23,475 nucleotides of DNA, taken from a virus. Under the pieces are notes generated by a model. It saw only the letters and a list, made by a program, of their open reading frames with translations, ran no database searches and was not told where the DNA came from. A program made the position numbers and the translations under genes. Position 1 is the stretch's first letter. Every line of letters begins with the position of its first letter. This document shows positions 801 to 23,237 of the stretch, piece by piece. Location of the stretch: positions 1 to 23,475 of IMG/VR virus record IMGVR_UViG_3300021962_000672; one strand, 5' to 3'.

Positions 801-1244
801 TTAAAAAGCAAAGTCTTTGGTGAAAAACTTTCCTAAAATATTATCATTAAAATATCCTTCGGGATGTTCTAGCACACCATATTTAAATAAAAACTTACAT
901 TCATAGTAAGTTAAAAGTTTTTTATTAGGAACCAATTGTAAAATTTCACGGGTAAATTCCTCTTGTTTACCATCCTTTATGTATTCTAAAATTGGTTTAG
1001 CAGAGCCATAATAGGTTTTCCAGTCTGATTCTTTTGTTACTACTTTAGTAGCTGATTTTCTACCTGGGCCTGTTTGTTCTGCTAGTTCCTTTTTTGTTAG
1101 TTTTTTCTTTACATTATGGTAAAGAACTTTTTTACCAATATAAGATTTATTACTTGGTTTATGAGTCACTATGTAAATAAAACCAAATGTGTCTTGAGGA
1201 AAATCCTCAATATTTTCTATAACCTTTTTATTATATAACCACAT
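801..1244 (-). CDS. GIY-YIG family endonuclease-like protein
   Basis: This 147-residue protein has the GIY-YIG nuclease signature: GFIYIV at residues 21-26, then YIGKK at 35-39. A basic stretch follows, with ESDWKTYYGS at 72-81. A Glu in YYECK (Glu115) is the likely metal-binding residue, and asparagines in YFNDN (133, 135) close the fold. GIY-YIG domains cut DNA in homing endonucleases, UvrC and restriction enzymes. Here the insertion between YIG and SDW and the absence of an obvious separate DNA-binding domain resemble the small free-standing proteins common in T4-like phages, whose role is unsettled. Its ATG overlaps the stop of the upstream 340-residue structural gene as TAATG, so it is probably translated by reinitiation at the end of the virion operon. 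It could be a homing nuclease, a recombination or repair nuclease, or an enzyme that degrades host DNA. Confidence 0.82.
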   Translation of the reverse strand: MWLYNKKVIENIEDFPQDTFGFIYIVTHKPSNKSYIGKKVLYHNVKKKLTKKELAEQTGPGRKSATKVVTKESDWKTYYGSAKPILEYIKDGKQEEFTREILQLVPNKKLLTYYECKFLFKYGVLEHPEGYFNDNILGKFFTKDFAF

Positions 1245-11309: not shown

Positions 11310-13175
11310 TTATAAAGGTACTACTCTGCCTTGGATATCTGAATTAGGGTATCTGACTTCAAAAATAGAAGGGTCAAGTGAAGGATAAATTACATTACTA
11401 TAAGTAGCCGCTGGTATATCATAAGCATACTGCGAATATCCTAAATCTTGCCCTACTTTATTAGTAATATCAATTGTTTTTACTGTTTGTACACCTTCTA
11501 TAGCATCTAAAAGAATATAAATTTCTCTTAAAATAATAGGTTGATTAATTTGCCATTTATCAGTAGCAAAATAATCACGTAAAGCTATAATACATTTAGT
11601 TAAAACTTCATTACTATTAAAATTAGGTAAAATAATAATATCAAAATTAACTCCTATATTAATTATAAAAGCATCTTTAATATTAACAGAATCATTTACC
11701 ATTCTATATTGAGAAAGGTAAGTGTTTAAGTTTTGTTTAACACCATTAGAAGCTGATGATAATTGTTTAGCTCCATTGTATGTTAAAATATATAAATCTA
11801 AAACAGATTGAGATTCACCAGCTGATAGTGATTGGGCTTTAGTAGGTTCAATATATGCTTTTGAAATAACACCATATTTAGCTGGCATTGAAAGTGCTCT
11901 AACTAAATAATCATCTTGTGTCACATTACGTAATTGGGAAGCGAAATTAGCAGATGCGTTTTGCCTAATTTCTTCTATTGAATCTCCATCTCCTCCTCCA
12001 TCAGCTGCGTCTAAATTAGTTACAGCTAAAGATCTTAATATATTATTAGCTGTAGATGAGTTTAAATTTTTATTTAAAAAAGTACTAGTTCCTGTAAGTC
12101 TAGTTATAGTATTAGAAGGAACATTAGCTACAACTCCTCCACCTACTAAATATCTAACTATAAGAGTTGTATTTGAAGGAGCGATACCATAAGTATCTGT
12201 AAATAAGAAATTAGAAGGTGAATAAGCTGTTGTTAGTTTATTTTTTTCAAAAGGCAATCCAATACCAACATTATTAGAATTAGGTGTGATTTCTTCATCT
12301 GAGTCAGTAGCTGTACCTGCTCCAAACTGGATTTGTAATGATCCTGAATCTAGAAAACGTGTAGCAAATCTACGTTGTACTTTTTCAAGTTTTAAAATAT
12401 AAGGAGTATCTCCAGAATATTGGGATAAATTAGGATCATTAACATTAGTATTTTTAATAGAATTATATACCATTTCTTGACCTAAATAATCTACTTCATA
12501 CCATTGATCTCCAGAACTAGAATCTACTACATCTAAAACTCCTACTATATTACTAGCGTTAATTTCAACAGTAGAAAATCTTTGAGGTTCTCCAAAAGTA
12601 AATTCTTCTGTTACTATAGTAGCAGATATTGCTTTTCTAGTTTTTTTCAATAAAAAGAAAGTAGGATCATTAGTCACATTATCAATACTAAAGACTGAAA
12701 CTTCTGTTGGGTCTAATGAACTAGATACTGAAAAATCTACTGGGTCTTCTACTAAAAAGGAAATTGAAGAAGAAACTGTAGTAGCTACACTAGCATTAGC
12801 ATCTATTAAAATACTATATGAGAAATCAGGAGCAATATTAGGACTACTACCACTAGCTGGTACTTGTTGATAAAAAGTCAAATTTGTTGTAGCGACACCT
12901 GTAGCATTTGGTTTATAACCAAACATGTAAGCTAATTCATATAAATTATTTGTTTGACGAGCATACTGTAAATAATTTTCTTGGATTTGATTATCTAAAT
13001 AAAATGAAAGAACATCACCTACATAAGCAGCCATTTCCATAAACATCATTCCTGGTGATGCTGGACTAAAATCTGTGTATGTTGTAGGAAAATAAGTTCG
13101 GGCGTAATCTATAAGATTTGCTCTTAACTCAGAAAAATCCTTATTTATGTATTTTATATCTCTTTTAGTAGCCAT
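11310..13175 (-). CDS. gp6: Baseplate wedge protein, gp6/J-like
   Basis: The 621-residue protein matches the T4 gp6/baseplate J-like family. It opens with KYINKDFSELRANLIDYART and continues with DFSPASPGMMFMEMAAYVGD, LSFYLDNQIQENYL and LYELAYMFGYKP, the conserved N-terminal signature of these proteins. The middle is beta-rich. The C-terminal part has TQDDYLVRALSMPAKYGVIS, then a conserved region containing LDLYIL and INQPIILREIYILLDAIEGV. In T4, gp6 forms the inner ring that ties the wedges into the six-fold baseplate around the hub. The order here, gp25-like gene then gp6-like gene 2 bases apart, is conserved across contractile-tail phages. The full length near the T4 homologue (660) argues that it is intact. 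The start at ATGGC in an AATAATGGC context has no Shine-Dalgarno sequence. Confidence 0.95.
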   Translation of the reverse strand: MATKRDIKYINKDFSELRANLIDYARTYFPTTYTDFSPASPGMMFMEMAAYVGDVLSFYLDNQIQENYLQYARQTNNLYELAYMFGYKPNATGVATTNLTFYQQVPASGSSPNIAPDFSYSILIDANASVATTVSSSISFLVEDPVDFSVSSSLDPTEVSVFSIDNVTNDPTFFLLKKTRKAISATIVTEEFTFGEPQRFSTVEINASNIVGVLDVVDSSSGDQWYEVDYLGQEMVYNSIKNTNVNDPNLSQYSGDTPYILKLEKVQRRFATRFLDSGSLQIQFGAGTATDSDEEITPNSNNVGIGLPFEKNKLTTAYSPSNFLFTDTYGIAPSNTTLIVRYLVGGGVVANVPSNTITRLTGTSTFLNKNLNSSTANNILRSLAVTNLDAADGGGDGDSIEEIRQNASANFASQLRNVTQDDYLVRALSMPAKYGVISKAYIEPTKAQSLSAGESQSVLDLYILTYNGAKQLSSASNGVKQNLNTYLSQYRMVNDSVNIKDAFIINIGVNFDIIILPNFNSNEVLTKCIIALRDYFATDKWQINQPIILREIYILLDAIEGVQTVKTIDITNKVGQDLGYSQYAYDIPAATYSNVIYPSLDPSIFEVRYPNSDIQGRVVPL

Positions 13176-13177
13176 TA

Positions 13178-13582
13178 TTAAAAGGTAATTGTAATTTCAT
13201 CTGTTAATCCTGTGTTTCGAATAGAATATTTTAAAACAATAGATACTTGATTTAAATCAGGAATTGAATCTACATTTAGTTGATCTACTAAAACATTTGG
13301 AAAAAATATATTAAGTTGATCTTGAATTTCTTCTTTTAAATTATCTAATTCGTTATTTGTTATTTGTTGAAATAAAAATGCTCTTAAATTTCCTCCAAAA
13401 TTAGGATTTAAATATCTTTCTGGTTGGTCAGTTAGAAAAAAATTTATTAAATTATTTTTAATAGCATCTTTTGTAGTATAAGTTGATTTAAAAACAGCGG
13501 GAGCATTAAAAGGAATAGACACACCAACCGCTACGCCTGGTTTTTTATCTACGGGAAATATTTGTTTAGCTCCAAACGCCAT
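13178..13582 (-). CDS. gp25: Baseplate wedge protein, gp25-like
   Basis: The 134-residue protein belongs to the GPW/gp25 family, lysozyme-fold-related baseplate proteins that contact the gp6-like ring and help start sheath assembly. Visible signature elements are KDAIKNNLINFFLTDQPERY at residues 38-57, followed by LNPNFGGNLRAFLF, which is the strongly conserved core including the Glu-Arg and Pro-x-FG pattern. A helix (about 76-90) and two C-terminal strands ending in SIVLKYSIRNT follow. The length matches T4 gp25 (132). It sits directly before the gp6-like gene with a 2-base gap, as in many phage and type VI secretion clusters. The start overlaps the stop of the 113-residue gene upstream (TAATG). 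Confidence 0.95.
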   Translation of the reverse strand: MAFGAKQIFPVDKKPGVAVGVSIPFNAPAVFKSTYTTKDAIKNNLINFFLTDQPERYLNPNFGGNLRAFLFQQITNNELDNLKEEIQDQLNIFFPNVLVDQLNVDSIPDLNQVSIVLKYSIRNTGLTDEITITF

Positions 13583-13923
13583 TATTTAGTCATTAATCCC
13601 ATTATTTGGTCTAAAGAAACTTGTCCTTCTGGTAAGGCTCCATTAATTGTATCAGCATTCCCTGGGTTAAAGTTTCCAGCATATGTTGTGTTAGCTGCTC
13701 CTCCATTTTGCATTTCACCTAAAATACCAGAAAACATATCTCTACGTTCTTGAGCTGATAGTTGTTTTGGTTTTTCAATGTAAGGTTGAGCATAAGTGTC
13801 TTTTGATTCAGTCATAACTTGTTTTGGGGCACGAACTGCTTCTAAAAGAATTTCTTTTAATTCTTCTTGGATAGCTTCTTTTACAGCTTCCTTGATTAAT
13901 TTTTTAAATTCTGTCGGTTTCAT
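13582..13923 (-). CDS. Small virion-associated protein with amphipathic N-terminal helix
   Basis: The 113-residue protein starts with a highly charged, Glu/Lys/Ala/Leu-rich amphipathic helix (residues 4-30). A linker with QPYIEKPKQLSAQERRDMFS and a Gly/Asn/Ala-rich tail follow, ending in LDQIMGLMTK. No known catalytic domain is seen. Its place between a helical hub-adjacent gene and the gp25-like gene, and the TAATG overlap with gp25, suggest that it is a baseplate assembly factor or minor virion protein. A sequence like the candidate late promoter lies only 2 bases before its ATG, which is too close for a normal leader, so that site may not drive this gene. Function unknown. Confidence 0.72.
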   Translation of the reverse strand: MKPTEFKKLIKEAVKEAIQEELKEILLEAVRAPKQVMTESKDTYAQPYIEKPKQLSAQERRDMFSGILGEMQNGGAANTTYAGNFNPGNADTINGALPEGQVSLDQIMGLMTK

Positions 13924-13925
13924 TA

Positions 13926-13938
13926 GTTATAAATATTA
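13926..13938 (-). promoter_or_regulatory. Promoter-like motif at the 113-residue gene start
   Basis: The minus strand reads TAATATTTATAAC, sharing AATATTTATAA with the sites before 17495 and 3992. It overlaps the stop codon of the upstream 328-residue gene and leaves only 2 bases before the ATG at 13923. As a -10 element it would start transcription inside the coding region, so either the transcript serves the gp25-like and gp6-like genes downstream, or the match has another meaning. Confidence 0.25.
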
Positions 13939-14922
13939 AAGTTGTTGTTCTTTTTTTAAATTTAATTTATCTATTTCTAGTTTTGCTTCTTTTATAATAG
14001 AATTATTATCAGAGCCATATGTAGCGGTTGTATTTAAAACAAATTCTTTTTTAGAATTAGTTACTCGAGCAAATCTTTTAATTAATTTTGTAGTTTGTCC
14101 TTCTTCTGAGAGGATAGATATATTATATCCGTCATAATTGAAGTTACTAACATTAATATTATTATTTGGAGATGGTGGTTCATCTACAATATTGCTAAAA
14201 TTAGGAGATATATTTCCAACATCAATACCATTTTCTATAGAACAAAAAACTAATAGTAAATCTAAAATGTCTAATTTATCAGCAATACTTTTAAATTGAT
14301 TTGTTATTAAACCAATACTGCCTTTAGTTTGTTCAACAATAGAATTAGAAGCTTCTAAACCTTCTTGAGCATCATCTAATTTAGTAATAAGTGTAGCTAT
14401 AAATCCTGTTGTTATAGGGGCAGGGGCAGTTGGTAAAGGAGCTACTTTAATAATTCCAACCAATATTTCTAATGTAGGAATAATATCACTAATAGTTTTT
14501 AATTGTTCTTCAGCTTTTGTTATACCTTTAATAGAATTAGGATTAACAGTTTGGTTTATAGATGATTTAAATTCTTTTAATGAAGCTATATTTCTGTCTG
14601 TTGGACATTTTGATTTTAATTTATTTTGTAGTATTTTAGTATCTTCTGTTTGACTTAGTTTAACTAATTCTTCTTTTACAAAAGTTTTCCTTTGTTCTGG
14701 ATCTTGAAATTGTTTGGCTTTATTTTGTATTTCTTGATAGTCAGCATAATATTTTTCAAGTTTAGCTTTATTATTATTAATAATTTGAATGTTCTCTTCC
14801 CCAACAATACTATTAATTTTAGTATTTACTTTTTGTTTAACTTTATTTGAAAATCCAAATATAGGATCCAATTGTTCAAACAAATATTTACTTAATTTTA
14901 TGGCGAATTTTTTCTGTGACAT
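13936..14922 (-). CDS. Helical baseplate-associated protein, hub neighbour
   Basis: The 328-residue protein is mostly helical and Lys/Glu/Ile-rich in its first ~230 residues, with several coiled-coil-prone stretches such as residues 50-90. A short hydrophobic/Pro segment (VGIIKVAPLPTAPAPITTG) lies near 155-173. After a Pro/Asn linker, the last ~70 residues contain YDGYNISILSEE, an RFARV strand and a helix with IIKEAKLEIDKL. I remember this ending from structural proteins next to the baseplate hub in other environmental myophages, where the pattern is a Tyr-x-Gly-Tyr strand followed by a final helix. It lies 6 bases after the hub/spike gene. A role in hub assembly, or as a chaperone or tape-like helical component, is inferred. 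No enzyme motif is visible. Confidence 0.72.
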   Translation of the reverse strand: MSQKKFAIKLSKYLFEQLDPIFGFSNKVKQKVNTKINSIVGEENIQIINNNKAKLEKYYADYQEIQNKAKQFQDPEQRKTFVKEELVKLSQTEDTKILQNKLKSKCPTDRNIASLKEFKSSINQTVNPNSIKGITKAEEQLKTISDIIPTLEILVGIIKVAPLPTAPAPITTGFIATLITKLDDAQEGLEASNSIVEQTKGSIGLITNQFKSIADKLDILDLLLVFCSIENGIDVGNISPNFSNIVDEPPSPNNNINVSNFNYDGYNISILSEEGQTTKLIKRFARVTNSKKEFVLNTTATYGSDNNSIIKEAKLEIDKLNLKKEQQL

Positions 14923-14928
14923 TATATT

Positions 14929-17154
14929 TTAACATAAATGACCATATTTTTCAGCAAAATAAGCTGGCATTTTTGAGTGTCCTAAACCTAATGAAATTGT
15001 TTGACTTCCTCCTGCTTTTAAATTATTTATTAAATAATCAATCTGAGGAACATAATAAGATGGTGTTCCCCAATTTTTTTTATTATAAATCATAATACTA
15101 TTATTAGTGTATTCGTACTTAGTAAGCATAGCTTCTGGGGAAGGATCAATAAAACCAATAAATTTATAGGCTTTACCAGCGGATGTAGCACCTACTGATA
15201 CTCCTGCTCGTCCACTTTTTGAGAAAACAACAATACTATTAATATTTAAATTAGGATAATTTTGTTTAATATTAGCTTTAGCTTTAGCCATATTGTTCTC
15301 TCCATACTCCCAATCCATAAAAACAAAAGCTGTGTTATTAAATATAGGTTCATTTCCTTTTTTAAATTCATTATACATAAATTTTCCTCCATATGTAACA
15401 CTTTTAGTACCTCCAAACACCACACATATAGAATTTGGATCAGAAGGTTTATTAGGTATAACATAAACAATACCTGATTTTCCTGCTCCTACTGGAAGTT
15501 CTTTAACAGTATATCCTCCATTATTATTGATAACTGGGGGATCAGTTGTAACAACAGGATCTGGGGCGGAACCTGTATCAAAAGGAATTACTGGGGGTAA
15601 TTCAGGTTCAACATCCACATATGTAAAATCTCCAAATAAATCACTATCTACTTCAAAATCAGGAGATGACACTATAGAAGCAGAAACCGGAACTGAAGCT
15701 GAAAGGGATGATGATAATTCTGATGGTATTTCTTCTGAGCCTGAAGTTAGTGATTCTAAGGAACCAGTATCTTCTGTAGGGTATATTGGTTCATCAACAA
15801 TAACTTGTCCAGTATCTGTTACTTCAGCAAAAGTAGAATTTTCTGGGGTCACAATTGTTATTGGTGCAGGAGGTGTAGGTGCTTGGAAAGGTGCACTAAC
15901 AGAGACTTTACTATTAATTACTCTAACTTTATCTGAAAGTAAAAGATCTAAATTAGATTGAATAGTTTTAAGATCTACAGAACATGCTTTACTAACCATA
16001 TTTAAAGGAGCAAAAGGTGCTCCTGGGGGTAAGGAAGCCAAAACAGATAATTGATCTAAAACAGTAGTTAAACTATCTATTAAATCTTTTAAAGCAGTTA
16101 CAGTATCTTTACCTAATAATATAGGTTGAGAATCATTATCTGATTTAGTACCTAAATTAATTGCTTGAGCTGATATATTAAATGTATCAGTATCAACATT
16201 AACAGAGGTTAAACTATTTAATCCTATTGAATTATTTGAAGAAAGTAATAAATGATCTTTAGCAGCATTAAATACTAAACGGTCAGATGTTACTATAACT
16301 TGAGAACCTTCATATTCTGAAGGAACTGTAGGGGCTGATGTATAGCTATTATAATTTATACTAGCTGCTTGAAGAGGTATTTTTTGAGTACTACCTAAAT
16401 ATATTGATGCTAAATCTTCATTTACATCTTCTAAAATAGGAATCCAACCTTCTGTAGTAGTGTTTTTAGTTTGGCCATTTCTTATAATAGTGATAGGATC
16501 TCCATTAATACCTGCTGTTGACCAAAGATTAGGGTTATTAGCTCCATTAACAGTACTACCAAATCTTAAACTATTTCCCCATCTTCCTTCATAAATAACA
16601 TCACCTTCATAAGGTAAAAGAGGTTTAATTTCAGATCTTTCAAAAAAAGTTTGACCTAAAAATATCTCTGTAGATTGATCTGTTACTCTTCTAACACTGC
16701 CTGCCTCTGTTTGAATGTAATCTTTTTGTTGAGAATCAGGTAAAGTATTTGGAAATGAAGGAAATCCATTATGATGAGGATGATTCCAAACTGAGACTAC
16801 ACTTATATAATAAGCTATTCTATTACTAGTTGCACTAGCAATATTAGTACCTGGAAGGCCAAATATATAAACTATTTCATTTATTAAAGGTAATTGTTTT
16901 AAATTAGGAAAAGCAGGTCTAGCAGTCTGAAGTTTTTGGCCAGATGAAGTAGGGGCATTAATATGTTCATATTCAATAGTTCCTAAACCATTCCATTCAC
17001 CTAATTCTTTAAAGCGAGGATGATATTGATCTAAAACTATACTTTTAACCCTAACGGACGATAAAGGACCATTTATAGCTCCTGCTAATGTAGAACCAAA
17101 TTGGTTACTATTATTAAGATTTAAAGCTCCACCAATACCAAATTGTCCTGCCAT
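14929..17154 (-). CDS. gp5-like baseplate hub/spike with C-terminal hydrolase-like domain
   Basis: The 741-residue protein has an N-terminal domain (about 30-270) like the gp5 OB-fold of T4-like hubs: VRVKSIVLDQYHPRF at 34-48, GTIEYEHI, then PLINEIVYIFG, and EGRWGNSLRFGS at 189-200, a hallmark of this family. A helical segment (about 350-410) is followed by a Pro/Ser/Asp/Glu-rich linker (about 420-545). The C-terminal ~190 residues look like an alpha/beta-hydrolase fold. An ICVVFGG strand and oxyanion-type glycines lie at 576-582, a nucleophile-elbow-like VVFSKSG puts Ser647 at the turn, and there are candidate acid Asp670 (FIDPSPE) and candidate base His726 (GLGHSKM). T4 gp5 carries a lysozyme domain instead. 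The domain may cut cell-envelope material during infection, but substrate and activity are unknown. TAATG overlaps the upstream gene. Confidence 0.85.
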   Translation of the reverse strand: MAGQFGIGGALNLNNSNQFGSTLAGAINGPLSSVRVKSIVLDQYHPRFKELGEWNGLGTIEYEHINAPTSSGQKLQTARPAFPNLKQLPLINEIVYIFGLPGTNIASATSNRIAYYISVVSVWNHPHHNGFPSFPNTLPDSQQKDYIQTEAGSVRRVTDQSTEIFLGQTFFERSEIKPLLPYEGDVIYEGRWGNSLRFGSTVNGANNPNLWSTAGINGDPITIIRNGQTKNTTTEGWIPILEDVNEDLASIYLGSTQKIPLQAASINYNSYTSAPTVPSEYEGSQVIVTSDRLVFNAAKDHLLLSSNNSIGLNSLTSVNVDTDTFNISAQAINLGTKSDNDSQPILLGKDTVTALKDLIDSLTTVLDQLSVLASLPPGAPFAPLNMVSKACSVDLKTIQSNLDLLLSDKVRVINSKVSVSAPFQAPTPPAPITIVTPENSTFAEVTDTGQVIVDEPIYPTEDTGSLESLTSGSEEIPSELSSSLSASVPVSASIVSSPDFEVDSDLFGDFTYVDVEPELPPVIPFDTGSAPDPVVTTDPPVINNNGGYTVKELPVGAGKSGIVYVIPNKPSDPNSICVVFGGTKSVTYGGKFMYNEFKKGNEPIFNNTAFVFMDWEYGENNMAKAKANIKQNYPNLNINSIVVFSKSGRAGVSVGATSAGKAYKFIGFIDPSPEAMLTKYEYTNNSIMIYNKKNWGTPSYYVPQIDYLINNLKAGGSQTISLGLGHSKMPAYFAEKYGHLC

Positions 17155-17495
17155 TATTTTTTCTCTCCAACATTTTTAGCTAAATCAAATAATTGAGCTT
17201 TTTCTTCATCTGAGAAAGCTAATTCATTAGATCCGTTTTGGGCTTGCACTTGTAAAGCACGCTGAACAATGGTGGCCATTTTGATGAGTTGCTCATCATT
17301 TTTGACTCCAATTTCCATATATTCTTTAATTAAAGGTACTACTAAAGTAGCATCTCCAATGTCATTAATAAGGGGTTTTAATTCTCCAATTAAGGCAGAA
17401 ATTTGAGCTTCTTTTTTCTTTTGATTCTCATAAATTTCTTCTAAAATGTCAGAGAATTTTTTATTTTTAAATATTTTAGAATCTAATCCACTCAT
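17154..17495 (-). CDS. Conserved hypothetical helical phage protein
   Basis: The 113-residue protein is almost wholly helical by composition. It has a charged N-terminal helix (DILEEIYENQKKKEAQISAL), then LIGELKPLINDIG, and a segment with LVVPLIKEYMEIGVKNDEQL followed by MATIVQRAL. No catalytic or metal-binding motif is seen. It sits between the late sigma factor gene and the hub gene and shares TAATG with the latter. A candidate late promoter lies 8 bases before its ATG, so it probably opens the main virion transcript. The position hints at a structural or assembly role, but a transcriptional accessory role beside gp55 is equally possible. I do not recognise the family. Confidence 0.72.
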   Translation of the reverse strand: MSGLDSKIFKNKKFSDILEEIYENQKKKEAQISALIGELKPLINDIGDATLVVPLIKEYMEIGVKNDEQLIKMATIVQRALQVQAQNGSNELAFSDEEKAQLFDLAKNVGEKK

Positions 17496-20113: not shown

Positions 20114-20995
20114 TTATAGACCAAGTAACATATCAATAAGTTCTGGTTGAGGAAACATATCAACTTTGTCTTTTCTGGTATTAGTATGTGTCCACATTCC
20201 TTTTATTTTACCATAATATGCGTCTTGATTAAATTCAAATCCATTAACACCTTTTTTCTTAATTTCTTCTACTAATCCCTTACGAACATCTATATTATCT
20301 CTTTCAGCAATCCAAAGTATCCACTTCCTAAGTGCTTCAATTTGAGCATCTGAGTAACGATGCCAAATTTTATGTCCTCTAAACTCTTTAGCTAGTGTTA
20401 CTGTTTGGGATTCAATAACTGGGGTTCCTTGGTATGCTTTACCATTGATAACATATCCAAAGTTACATACTTCAATACCAACTGAATTTATGTGCATTTT
20501 TTGGGAGCCATTTACTCCTAAATGCCAACCATAATTTCCTTGGGGAAATGCTTGAACCATTTCTCCATCGTATTTGTCATCATTTCCTTTAATTGAAGGA
20601 CCACCTAATACAAATTCAGTAGCAATAGCACCTCTAGTATCCTTACCCCAATTATCAATTGTTTGGTATGGATTGTGCCAACCTGCTGTGTGGTGTAAGA
20701 ATACCCATTCAGCTTTAATAGGACCTTGTTTATATTCACCTACAGGTAAAAAGTGTCTATTAATTACTAAACCATTATCTGTAGTATAAACTTTCTCAGA
20801 AGCATCTGTAGTGGCTAATCCTATAGCATCCCAAGTTTTAGGGCCTACAATACCATCAGCTTTTAAACCATTTGCTGATTGCCATTTTTTAACAGCAACT
20901 TCTGTTTTTGGTCCGAAGTCACCATCAGCCTTAATTCCTAAAAACTCTTGAAGTTCTTTAACTTCTTTACCTTGTGAACCTAATTTAAGTAACAT
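20114..20995 (-). CDS. Endolysin: N-acetylmuramoyl-L-alanine amidase with peptidoglycan-binding domain
   Basis: The 293-residue protein would cut the amide bond between muramic acid and L-alanine in peptidoglycan to release progeny. Residues 1-60 form a peptidoglycan-binding type 1 domain (LGSQGKEVKELQEFLG, then ADGDFGPKTEVAVKKWQ and ADGIVGPKTWDAIG). From about 80 to 285 lies an Amidase_2/PGRP-like zinc amidase. Likely zinc ligands are His101 or His102 in FLHHTAG, His270 in MWTHTNTR and Asp279 in KVDMFPQ. GWHLG (156-160) and INSVGIEV (169-176) are further family motifs. No signal peptide is present, so release depends on a holin. Its ATG overlaps the stop of the 71-residue membrane protein (TAATG), placing it at the end of the lysis cassette. 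The length is typical for modular endolysins. Confidence 0.93.
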   Translation of the reverse strand: MLLKLGSQGKEVKELQEFLGIKADGDFGPKTEVAVKKWQSANGLKADGIVGPKTWDAIGLATTDASEKVYTTDNGLVINRHFLPVGEYKQGPIKAEWVFLHHTAGWHNPYQTIDNWGKDTRGAIATEFVLGGPSIKGNDDKYDGEMVQAFPQGNYGWHLGVNGSQKMHINSVGIEVCNFGYVINGKAYQGTPVIESQTVTLAKEFRGHKIWHRYSDAQIEALRKWILWIAERDNIDVRKGLVEEIKKKGVNGFEFNQDAYYGKIKGMWTHTNTRKDKVDMFPQPELIDMLLGL

Positions 20996-21678: not shown

Positions 21679-21704
21679 GCCATAGCTACAACATCTGACT
21701 GCGG

Positions 21705-21778
21705 TGGACCTTATAGGGCTTGAACCTATGACCTTCGCATTATGAGTGCGCTGCTCTGACCAACTGAGCTAAAGGTCC
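21705..21778 (-). tRNA. tRNA-Met (CAT)
   Basis: The minus strand folds into a full cloverleaf of 74 bases including the discriminator. The acceptor GGACCTT pairs with AAGGTCC, the D arm is GCTC/GAGC, the anticodon loop is CTCATAA and the T arm has TTCAAGC. The anticodon-stem outer pair is a G-A mismatch. The body resembles elongator tRNA-Met rather than initiator, since it lacks the three G-C pairs of initiator anticodon stems. A CAT anticodon could also be tRNA-Ile2 after lysidine modification. The final A of CCA is not encoded. Confidence 0.92.
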
Positions 21779-21816
21779 AAATAAAGGAGTTCATTGACGG
21801 GTTTAACTTAATTTAA

Positions 21817-22128
21817 TTAAAAGTATTCCTTTCCAAGTGATTTCTTTAAAAAGTCTACTTTGCGATTTATTTCATCTAATTCTTTAAATAAAACATCATT
21901 TAATTTATCTACTCGAGAATCTATTTTACGATTTACATCATCAATATTTCTATGAAAGTCATATTCTCTATCATTTAGATCTCTTTGAAGATTATCAATA
22001 CTTCGTTCAACTTCACGTATTTGTTCTACGCATTTATTAACTTGTTTTCCTGACTTTAGAGCTACATTAACTATTACAACGCTAATAACTAACATAATTC
22101 CCAAACCAAAAGCTAAAATAATTTCCAT
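21817..22128 (-). CDS. Membrane-anchored coiled-coil protein
   Basis: The 103-residue protein has one N-terminal transmembrane segment (residues 3-24, IILAFGLGIMLVISVVIVNV) and then a long charged helix to the C-terminus. Heptad-like spacing runs from about residue 28 to 98 (for example VERSIDNLQRDLND and DEINRKVDFLKKSL), so a parallel coiled coil is likely. This layout recalls inner-membrane spanins of the Rz type, and the gene lies just before the lysis cassette, but spanins normally follow the endolysin and no lipoprotein partner is visible. It lies between tRNA-Arg and tRNA-Met. Unlike most genes here it has a Shine-Dalgarno-like AAAGGA about 9 bases before the ATG. Alternatives are a virion, signalling or exclusion protein. 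Confidence 0.75.
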   Translation of the reverse strand: MEIILAFGLGIMLVISVVIVNVALKSGKQVNKCVEQIREVERSIDNLQRDLNDREYDFHRNIDDVNRKIDSRVDKLNDVLFKELDEINRKVDFLKKSLGKEYF

Positions 22129-22152
22129 AATTTTTTTCCTTTCTTTTTAATA

Positions 22153-22163
22153 TGTCAAAGAAC
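22153..22163 (-). promoter_or_regulatory. boxA antitermination element (perfect match)
   Basis: The minus strand reads GTTCTTTGACA, an exact match to the boxA consensus GYTCTTTRANA bound by NusB-S10, and continues with TATT as in the Bacteroidota rRNA leaders I remember. It lies directly after tRNA-Arg and before the 103-residue gene, and forms part of the inverted repeat. Confidence 0.6.
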
Positions 22164-22170
22164 TCCTTTG

Positions 22171-22244
22171 TGATCCCAACAGGGGTCGAACCTGTAACCT
22201 GCTGCTTAGAAGGCAGCTGCTCTATCCAATTGAGCTATGAGATC
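22171..22244 (-). tRNA. tRNA-Arg (TCT)
   Basis: The 74-base cloverleaf on the minus strand has acceptor GATCTCA paired with TGGGATC (one G-T), D arm GCTC/GAGC, a perfect 5-bp anticodon stem GCTGC/GCAGC around the loop CTTCTAA, and a T arm with TTCGACC. The anticodon TCT reads AGA, the main Arg codon of the surrounding phage genes. The discriminator is A and the full CCA is not encoded. Confidence 0.95.
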
Positions 22245-22267
22245 ATGTTATTAATATAAATTACTTT

Positions 22268-22278
22268 TTTTAAAGAGC
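22268..22278 (-). promoter_or_regulatory. boxA antitermination element (perfect match)
   Basis: The minus strand reads GCTCTTTAAAA, matching GYTCTTTRANA at all positions, 23 bases before the 5' end of tRNA-Arg. With the site at 22153-22163 it brackets that tRNA. It lies in the divergent gap shared with the plus-strand gene. Confidence 0.55.
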
Positions 22279-22281
22279 CAA

Positions 22282-22297
22282 ATATGTATAATAAAAT
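22282..22297 (+). promoter_or_regulatory. Candidate late promoter of the plus-strand gene
   Basis: The plus strand reads ATATGTATAATAAAAT, with TATAAT at 22287-22292, 12 bases before the ATG at 22305. It is nearly the same as the minus-strand site at 4004-4018 (ATATTTATAATAAAA). Finding the motif in the coding orientation on the opposite strand supports a strand-specific promoter. Confidence 0.42.
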
Positions 22298-22304
22298 ATT
22301 AACT

Positions 22305-22748
22305 ATGGCTCAATATGCAATTACTTACGCTCCAAACTATAATGGAGGATCAGAACCAGTAAATACAAGCAAAACAGGAAGTTTCCGTATAGGAGCTTTA
22401 TCAGCTGGACCTTGGAATCAAACAGTACCTCAAAGTACTACTAATACTTTATTCTGTGCGAGTCCAAATGATACATCAGCTTACATAATCGCTTTACCTA
22501 ATCCAAGTCCAAGTGCTCCTTTTACAGGTTTAGACGCACCTCAATTTTGGCAATCAGTTAATCCATTAACAGGTGCCCCTCAAAAAAATGATGCTGCTTT
22601 TATAAACATATGTGATTATATATTAAAAAATTATGGTGCAGATGGAAACCCAGGTGTTATTAATGTAGGGGGATGTTCTACTGTTAGTCAATGTCAACAA
22701 TTAATAGATACTGCAGGATGGCAATCATATAACTGGTTAGCTCCTTAA
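22305..22748 (+). CDS. Lone plus-strand gene, putative secreted or virion protein
   Basis: The only plus-strand gene encodes 147 residues from the ATG at 22305 (MAQYAITYAPNYNG). An in-frame ATG at 22284 lies inside the promoter-like motif and is less likely. The product is rich in Pro, Asn, Ser, Ala and Gly, with four cysteines (in LFCASPND, INICDYIL, and GGCSTVSQCQQL near the C-terminus) and aromatic residues at the end (GWQSYNWLAP). No domain, signal peptide or membrane segment was recognised. Composition suits a small structural or decoration protein. It has its own promoter-like motif and a strong terminator, so it is a self-contained unit set into a tRNA cluster read the other way. It may be an accessory (moron-like) gene. 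Confidence 0.78.
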   Translation: MAQYAITYAPNYNGGSEPVNTSKTGSFRIGALSAGPWNQTVPQSTTNTLFCASPNDTSAYIIALPNPSPSAPFTGLDAPQFWQSVNPLTGAPQKNDAAFINICDYILKNYGADGNPGVINVGGCSTVSQCQQLIDTAGWQSYNWLAP

Positions 22749-22768
22749 ACAATAATATATAAAAAAAG

Positions 22769-22796
22769 AAACCCGAGCTTTTACTCGGGTTTTTTT
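22769..22796. terminator. Bidirectional Rho-independent terminator
   Basis: AAACCCGAG (22769-22777) and CTCGGGTTT (22784-22792) form a perfect 9-bp stem with a 6-base loop. It is followed by a T-run on the plus strand and by a T-rich run on the minus strand (A-run at 22761-22767). It ends the plus-strand gene 20 bases after its stop and can also stop minus-strand transcription coming out of the tRNA cluster. Confidence 0.92.
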
Positions 22797-22857
22797 ATGC
22801 TTAGGTGGGTCGCTTTGCATGGGAACCTAAACATATCTTTTTCTGTCTTCAGCGGCG

Positions 22858-22942
22858 CGGAGAGAGAGGGATTCGAACCCCCGGACCTGTTACAGTCATC
22901 AGTTTTCAAGACTGGCGCATTCGACCGCTCTGCCATCTCTCC
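22858..22942 (-). tRNA. tRNA-Ser (TGA)
   Basis: The 85-base minus-strand cloverleaf has the long variable arm of class II tRNAs. Acceptor GGAGAGA pairs with TCTCTCC, the anticodon loop is CTTGAAA with anticodon TGA, and the T loop is TTCGAAT. The discriminator is G, as expected for Ser. The outer anticodon-stem pair is a C-A mismatch. It would read TCA codons. The terminator lies 60 bases downstream, and that gap contains only a weak 6-bp inverted repeat. Confidence 0.93.
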
Positions 22943-22946
22943 TGTG

Positions 22947-23019
22947 AGCCACAAGACGGACTCGAACCGCCGACCATCTGATTACAAATCAGAAGCTCTA
23001 CCAACTGAGCTATTGTGGC
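22947..23019 (-). tRNA. tRNA-Thr (TGT)
   Basis: The 73-base cloverleaf on the minus strand has acceptor GCCACAA/TTGTGGC, D arm GCTC/GAGC, anticodon stem TCTGA/TCAGA around loop TTTGTAA, and T loop TTCGAGT. The anticodon TGT reads ACA. The discriminator is U by the sequence. Only 4 bases separate it from tRNA-Ser and 9 from tRNA-Pro, so the three are probably cut from one precursor. Confidence 0.95.
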
Positions 23020-23028
23020 TTATTTTTG

Positions 23029-23102
<74 letters not shown>

Positions 23103-23120
23103 AACATTGGTAATTCAATA

Positions 23121-23131
23121 AATTAAAGAAC
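23121..23131 (-). promoter_or_regulatory. boxA-like element between tRNA-Leu and tRNA-Pro
   Basis: The minus strand reads GTTCTTTAATT, matching GYTCTTTRANA at 10 of 11 positions, with the last base different. Its place in a tRNA spacer and on the same strand as the two perfect sites makes it more than a chance match, though alone it would be weak. Confidence 0.4.
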
Positions 23132-23151
23132 GAACTACGTGAGTCTCCTAG

Positions 23152-23237
23152 TACTGCTGGCCGGGATCGAACCGGCACGACCTTTTCGGGTCACGGGATT
23201 TTAAGTCCCGCGTGTCTACCTATTCCACCACAACAGC
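23152..23237 (-). tRNA. tRNA-Leu (TAA)
   Basis: The 86-base class II tRNA on the minus strand has a long variable arm (TGACCCGAAAAGGTCG region). Acceptor GCTGTTG pairs with CAGCAGT (including G-T pairs), the D arm carries GGTAGACAC typical of tRNA-Leu, the anticodon stem is CGGGA/TCCCG around CTTAAAA, and the T loop is TTCGATC. The anticodon TAA reads TTA, the dominant Leu codon here. The gene begins 6 bases after the stop of the 65-residue gene. Confidence 0.95.

Follow-up and report, generated by a model that had tools for sequence, protein, structure and literature searches.

In the T4 spike protein gp5, a lysozyme sits mid-chain, between the OB fold and the beta-helix (PMC3004832). The specialised, or 'evolved', VgrG proteins of type VI secretion instead carry their effector domains at the C-terminus (PMC10433429), and in the diffocin CD1368, peptidoglycan hydrolases are joined to a gp27-like hub via a flexible loop (PMC10996793). 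We compare these systems with one gene in a window of 23,475 nucleotides, the whole stretch of viral DNA that was analysed (IMG/VR virus record IMGVR_UViG_3300021962_000672, positions 1 to 23,475). A first-pass annotation had described the gene as a baseplate spike with a gp5-like N-terminus, fused to a hydrolase-like domain in place of the T4 lysozyme. Our best reading of the sequences is that this domain is probably a fast-evolving, envelope-directed serine hydrolase, a swappable payload of the spike that is built like a specialised VgrG.

The gene is a single unbroken open reading frame of 741 aa at 14929-17154; it is encoded by the minus strand, a point left unstated in the first-pass annotation, and joins a spike/hub to a C-terminal hydrolase-like domain. 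Full-length copies with 96-99% identity are present on two other contigs, L001 and L002, which differ from each other by a single base within the gene and are therefore counted as one lineage. The chain has three parts, all on the minus strand. Residues 1-411 (15922..17154) are the hub/spike core, with a sequence pattern of beta-helix-like repeats, recognised by eye, at residues ~284-345 (16120..16305). Residues 412-545 (15520..15921) are by composition a flexible Ser/Pro/acidic linker of 134 aa, as had been claimed, with 15% Ser, 14% Pro, 16% Asp plus Glu and a net charge of -21. Residues 546-741 (14932..15519) are the serine-hydrolase-like domain of 196 aa, and within it the motifs FSKSG, FIDPSPE (Asp670) and GLGHSKM (His726) lie at the residue numbers first assigned to them.

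Residues 1 to about 411 share 53-60% identity with at least 80 IMG/VR loci, counting at least 77 proteins of ~410 aa, and 29-30% identity with proteins of two isolates, Flavobacterium phage immuto and Microcystis phage Mel-JY01. Relatives are also found on contigs binned with Winogradskyella and with another Flavobacteriaceae genome. From these isolate relatives and binned contigs, a Bacteroidota host appears likely for the window phage.

The neighbouring genes, again all on the minus strand, are those of a baseplate. The hub is followed by a divergent member of the family of second cassette genes (328 aa, 13936..14922; phmmer E 1e-9 to the relatives' second genes), a conserved third cassette gene (113 aa, 13582..13923) with the same size and place in relatives, a gp25-like baseplate wedge protein (13178..13582; PF04965, E 1.7e-8; phrog_261, E 9e-16) and a gp6/J-like baseplate wedge protein (11310..13175; phrog_219, E 1.4e-16). 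The gp25- and gp6-type wedge genes thus lie near the hub, past two short genes downstream, and the same cassette order (the hub, then genes for ~310, ~115, 135 and ~620 aa) recurs in most relatives with enough sequence. Contractile phages keep their spike at such a position, as in the V-W-J order of P2. Immediately upstream of the hub is another 113-aa gene (17154..17495), which is syntenic, at 49% identity, in a more distant locus, L246. In four relatives (L056, L057, L070 and L072), the product of the second cassette gene is lengthened at its N-terminus by segments of ~80-100 aa that are unlike one another, possibly another site of domain exchange.

We take residues 1 to about 411 to be a complete baseplate spike/hub within this conserved cassette, probably an OB-fold, then a beta-helix needle, then a helical segment. 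The gp5-like character claimed for the N-terminus draws on gene order, on hydrophobic repeats seen by eye and on DUF2345, matched weakly (E 0.022) by 3 of 17 relatives, but a comparison of T4 gp5 with the hub profile (hhalign) was not significant. In Pfam and PHROG searches, no gp27-like part was recognised in the 741-aa chain. A lysozyme likewise had no match in the 741-aa protein, and the ~410-aa relatives have no inserted enzyme.

Elsewhere in the window, six tRNA genes (Met, Arg, Ser, Thr, Pro and Leu) lie at 21703-23237 on the minus strand; a 109-aa open reading frame on the plus strand (22797-23126) is antisense to three of them and was rejected as spurious. A 147-aa protein with a GIY-YIG-like start (FGFIYIVTHKPSNKSYIGKK; 801-1244, minus strand) is possibly a homing endonuclease.

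We next consider how the C-terminal part is distributed among hub relatives. Among the at least 80 loci, the protein ends near residue 410 except in L001, in L002 and in one copy cut by a contig end. Because the relatives end there, the extension is a separate module. We then collected 236 hub open reading frames from 239 loci, some of which overlap so that the same gene is repeated; among them, extensions of more than 300 aa occur only in the window lineage and in five Mel-JY01-like hubs. Among these hubs, only the window lineage adds the linker and domain; nearly all of the ~230 relatives are complete at ~410 aa and carry no enzyme domain. On this sequence comparison, the domain was added to the C-terminus of the hub and does not stand in for a T4-type lysozyme, and the replacement proposed in the first-pass annotation was dropped.

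The appended domain has also changed faster than the protein that carries it. Between the window and L001, amino-acid changes number 1 in 411 residues of the hub, 0 in 134 of the linker and 8 in 196 of the domain, none of them at putative catalytic residues; dN/dS, calculated from few substitutions, is ~0.66 in the domain against ~0.036 in the hub. A domain that evolves faster than its hub, with unchanged catalytic residues, is as expected of a host-facing payload. The five Mel-JY01-like hubs (L097, L098, L101, L116 and L121) have a repetitive linker that is GT-rich or Pro-rich, and in some collagen-like (in L116, PF01391 at E 5e-6, just under the cut-off), followed by a different C-terminal payload of ~200 aa with a stretch that resembles leucine-rich repeats, by eye only. 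The presence of a different payload at the same end suggests that the C-terminus of the hub is an exchangeable payload site.

We searched for relatives of the domain itself. The first-pass annotation had proposed an HMM search for the domain alone; run against the Pfam, PHROG and NCBIfam libraries, it gave no family match, and for E-values up to 10 nothing that points to hydrolases. Single-sequence searches against Pfam, PHROGs, NCBIfam, the PDB and phage and plasmid records gave no match, nor did a profile search with the domain against 395 genomes. Viral and genome contigs scanned for exact peptides yielded near-identical copies only, until the query was masked and new peptides were forced, which uncovered a homologue in L246. 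Among the matches listed, this protein, P0002, is the sole distant homologue of the domain (phmmer E 2e-18), with 32% identity over residues 557-739 (blastp E 9e-17), and a profile scan made after its discovery added none. The collection scans detect sequences through near-exact shared peptides and list no more than the best 80, so that the rarity of the domain is only a lower-bound impression. Matches at E 0.003-0.008 in ~790 Bacteroidota genomes were attributed to chance: the five frames read belong to a sulfhydrylase (L090 and L091) and an ABC-transporter permease (L240, L241 and L244), leaving out L242, which matches the same query stretch, and L243, which has stops inside. A 159-aa protein of Alishewanella phage Slicko01 (E 1) was also set aside as chance.

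P0002 is a protein of 344 aa (L246:4515-5549) whose gene occupies the slot orthologous to that of the window hub. The four genes that precede it share 57, 36, 53 and 49% identity between L246 and the window, and the N-terminus of P0002 matches hub residues 74-123 at 43% identity (blastp E 2.8e-4) and the hub over 81 columns (hhalign E 1.1e-4). P0002 lacks the remainder of the spike core as well as the long linker; the L246 hub apparently consists of an OB-like fragment and the hydrolase-like domain, with no beta-helix-like part. The same domain is thus carried on a reduced spike in one phage and on a full spike in another. The first claim, of a hydrolase-like domain on a spike, is supported by this second example from the same slot of a related phage.

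With two independent lineages in hand, the only two from which motif conservation could be judged, we compared their sequences residue by residue. The motifs V-x-GGTKS, VF-x-DW, FSK-x-G, FIGFIDPS, M-x-YN-x-x-NW and GH-x-K-x-P are identical in both. The FSKSG motif holds two serines, Ser645 and Ser647, and the first-pass annotation had chosen Ser647 as the nucleophile. However, residue 647 is a glycine in P0002, whereas Ser645, Asp670 and His726 are the same in both lineages, and the elbow V-F-S-K-S-G of the window reads N-G-F-S-K-G-G in P0002, a canonical GxSxG centred on the serine equivalent to Ser645. From this alignment, the nucleophile is likely Ser645 (15220..15222) and not Ser647, which was dropped. 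The Asp and His of the originally proposed triad hold up: the likely catalytic acid is Asp670 in FIGFIDPS (15145..15147) and the likely catalytic base is His726 in GHxKxP (14977..14979), and across the two lineages nucleophile, acid and histidine keep their order. The invariant GGTKS at residues 581-585 (15400..15414), after predicted strand 3, is a candidate oxyanion-hole loop; all four features are on the minus strand.

The homologue also bears on whether a hydrolase using Ser647 took the place of the T4-type lysozyme of gp5. In P0002 the domain comes almost straight after a short N-terminus, the position of the lysozyme in T4 gp5, which counts in favour of such a replacement. The window domain, however, sits past the whole ~411-aa core, its relatives have no lysozyme to replace, and the proposed nucleophile is a glycine in P0002. 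The conservation of Ser645 in place of Ser647, together with the enzyme-free relatives, refutes this reading for the window, and we regard it as highly improbable overall.

The same residues are relevant to a different proposal, that the domain has alpha/beta-hydrolase-like ancestry and is now a catalytically weakened head on the spike that binds a receptor or glycan. The window elbow, VFSKSG, lacks both flanking glycines, the domain evolves quickly (dN/dS ~0.66), and related hubs carry at the same place a leucine-rich-repeat-like payload that probably binds. Yet Ser645, Asp670, His726 and the GGTKS loop have been kept over 68% sequence divergence, which would be unexpected for a dead enzyme, and we consider a binding head unlikely, though the likeliest of the alternatives to an active serine hydrolase.

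Evidence on the fold is less direct. Two AlphaFold runs on the domain, with 3 and 4 sequences, reached a pLDDT of 51 and 46, too poor for fold calls, and the second was no better for including the L246 homologue. A Foldseek search with the first model returned acetyl-CoA carboxylase and Argonaute, matches that are meaningless, so the structure prediction and fold search suggested in the first-pass annotation left the alpha/beta-hydrolase part of its claim unconfirmed. In that first model, several conserved blocks fall at the ends of predicted strands in alpha/beta-hydrolase order; the order of predicted strands and motifs is compatible with such a fold. Of four bacterial families compared by hhalign, none supported the fold in register: the Abhydrolase_2, GDSL and SDR sets scored within shuffle noise, and Abhydrolase_6 scored above all 60 shuffles, but only by way of a 30-column alignment that is out of catalytic register.

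Alternatively, the domain may be some other, undescribed alpha/beta domain with a binding or structural role, and its GxSxG, Asp and His motifs would then be a coincidence. It has no family, profile or structure support as a hydrolase, and conservation is judged from two lineages only. We quantified the coincidence by shuffling alignment columns: a GxSxG with a conserved serine arises alone in 3.6% of shuffles, but the full ordered signature, with the GxSxG serine, the acid and the histidine conserved in both lineages, arises in 0.5%. The most conserved blocks of the domain are also the motif blocks. We therefore rate a non-hydrolase domain as improbable, slightly more so than the binding head.

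On balance we think it probable, though far from assured, that residues 1-411 make up a trimeric contractile-tail spike/hub and that, in this lineage, it has gained a tethered serine hydrolase of alpha/beta type with Ser645, Asp670 and His726. According to this mechanism, residues 1-411 would trimerise as the spike, and the last ~190 residues would fold compactly as the hydrolase, with Ser645 as nucleophile, Asp670 as acid, His726 as base and the oxyanion loop near GGTKS. The flexible acidic linker of 134 residues would tether the enzyme to the C-terminus of the spike. Upon tail contraction, the spike would cross the outer membrane of the probably Bacteroidota host, bringing the three tethered hydrolase domains of each virion to or through that membrane, where they would cut an ester or amide bond near the puncture and ease penetration. 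What the sequences show is the fusion, its confinement to one lineage plus a single homologue in the same slot, and the conserved motifs; the trimeric spike, the hydrolase fold, catalysis, the place of action and the substrate are inferred. Candidate targets are a surface glycan, an outer-membrane lipid or a peptidoglycan peptide. The window also encodes a protein with peptidoglycan-binding and Amidase_2 domain matches, likely a lysin apart from the spike (20114-20995, minus strand); because of this separate protein, peptidoglycan cleavage need not fall to the spike, and a surface or membrane substrate for the spike domain is weakly indicated.

A broader proposal is more tentative, and we hold it to be possible but short of probable: that payloads are swapped at the C-terminal end of the central spike in this set of probable Bacteroidota phages, that one payload is a new family of serine hydrolases, so far seen on spikes only, which cuts a polymer or lipid of the outer envelope as the spike penetrates, and that in one phage the spike has been reduced to about its OB-fold base alone. 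If true, it would point to a new entry chemistry at the outer layers of Bacteroidota, a group in which little is known of how phages enter, and the conserved spike would allow the exchange of payloads at a single site to be tested. The phage-tail spike enzymes in the papers cited here target peptidoglycan, and a serine hydrolase at the needle tip would be a chemically different route. In a limited literature search, which falls short of proving absence, no phage central spike that carries an alpha/beta-hydrolase came to light.

How the locus resembles and departs from known systems can now be stated. Like the alpha/beta-hydrolase superfamily (Abhydrolase_2/6), the domain has a candidate oxyanion loop, a serine elbow, a putative acid and a histidine in that order, with GxSxG in P0002; it differs in having no detectable profile similarity and, in the predicted model, in placing the acid after strand 6, with an Asn at the usual strand-7 acid position. 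The Mel-JY01-like hubs share with the window a homologous hub and a C-terminal payload of ~200 aa on a linker, but their payload is leucine-rich-repeat-like by eye whereas that of the window is hydrolase-like. In diffocin CD1368, an enzyme is also flexibly joined to a contractile-tail protein, but there a lytic transglycosylase and an endopeptidase are carried on a gp27-like hub rather than on a spike. T4 gp5 similarly unites a spike and a cell-envelope enzyme in one chain, with gp25 and gp6 wedge genes nearby, whereas the window protein has a serine-hydrolase-like domain at its C-terminus, no lysozyme and a hub profile with no sequence match to gp5. The window protein differs from a specialised VgrG in coming from a phage baseplate gene, with no gp27 seen fused at the N-terminus, and its domain shows no sequence relation to known effectors within the libraries searched, but both place an extra C-terminal domain after a spike; if our reading is true, the window protein would be a phage counterpart of specialised VgrG effectors.
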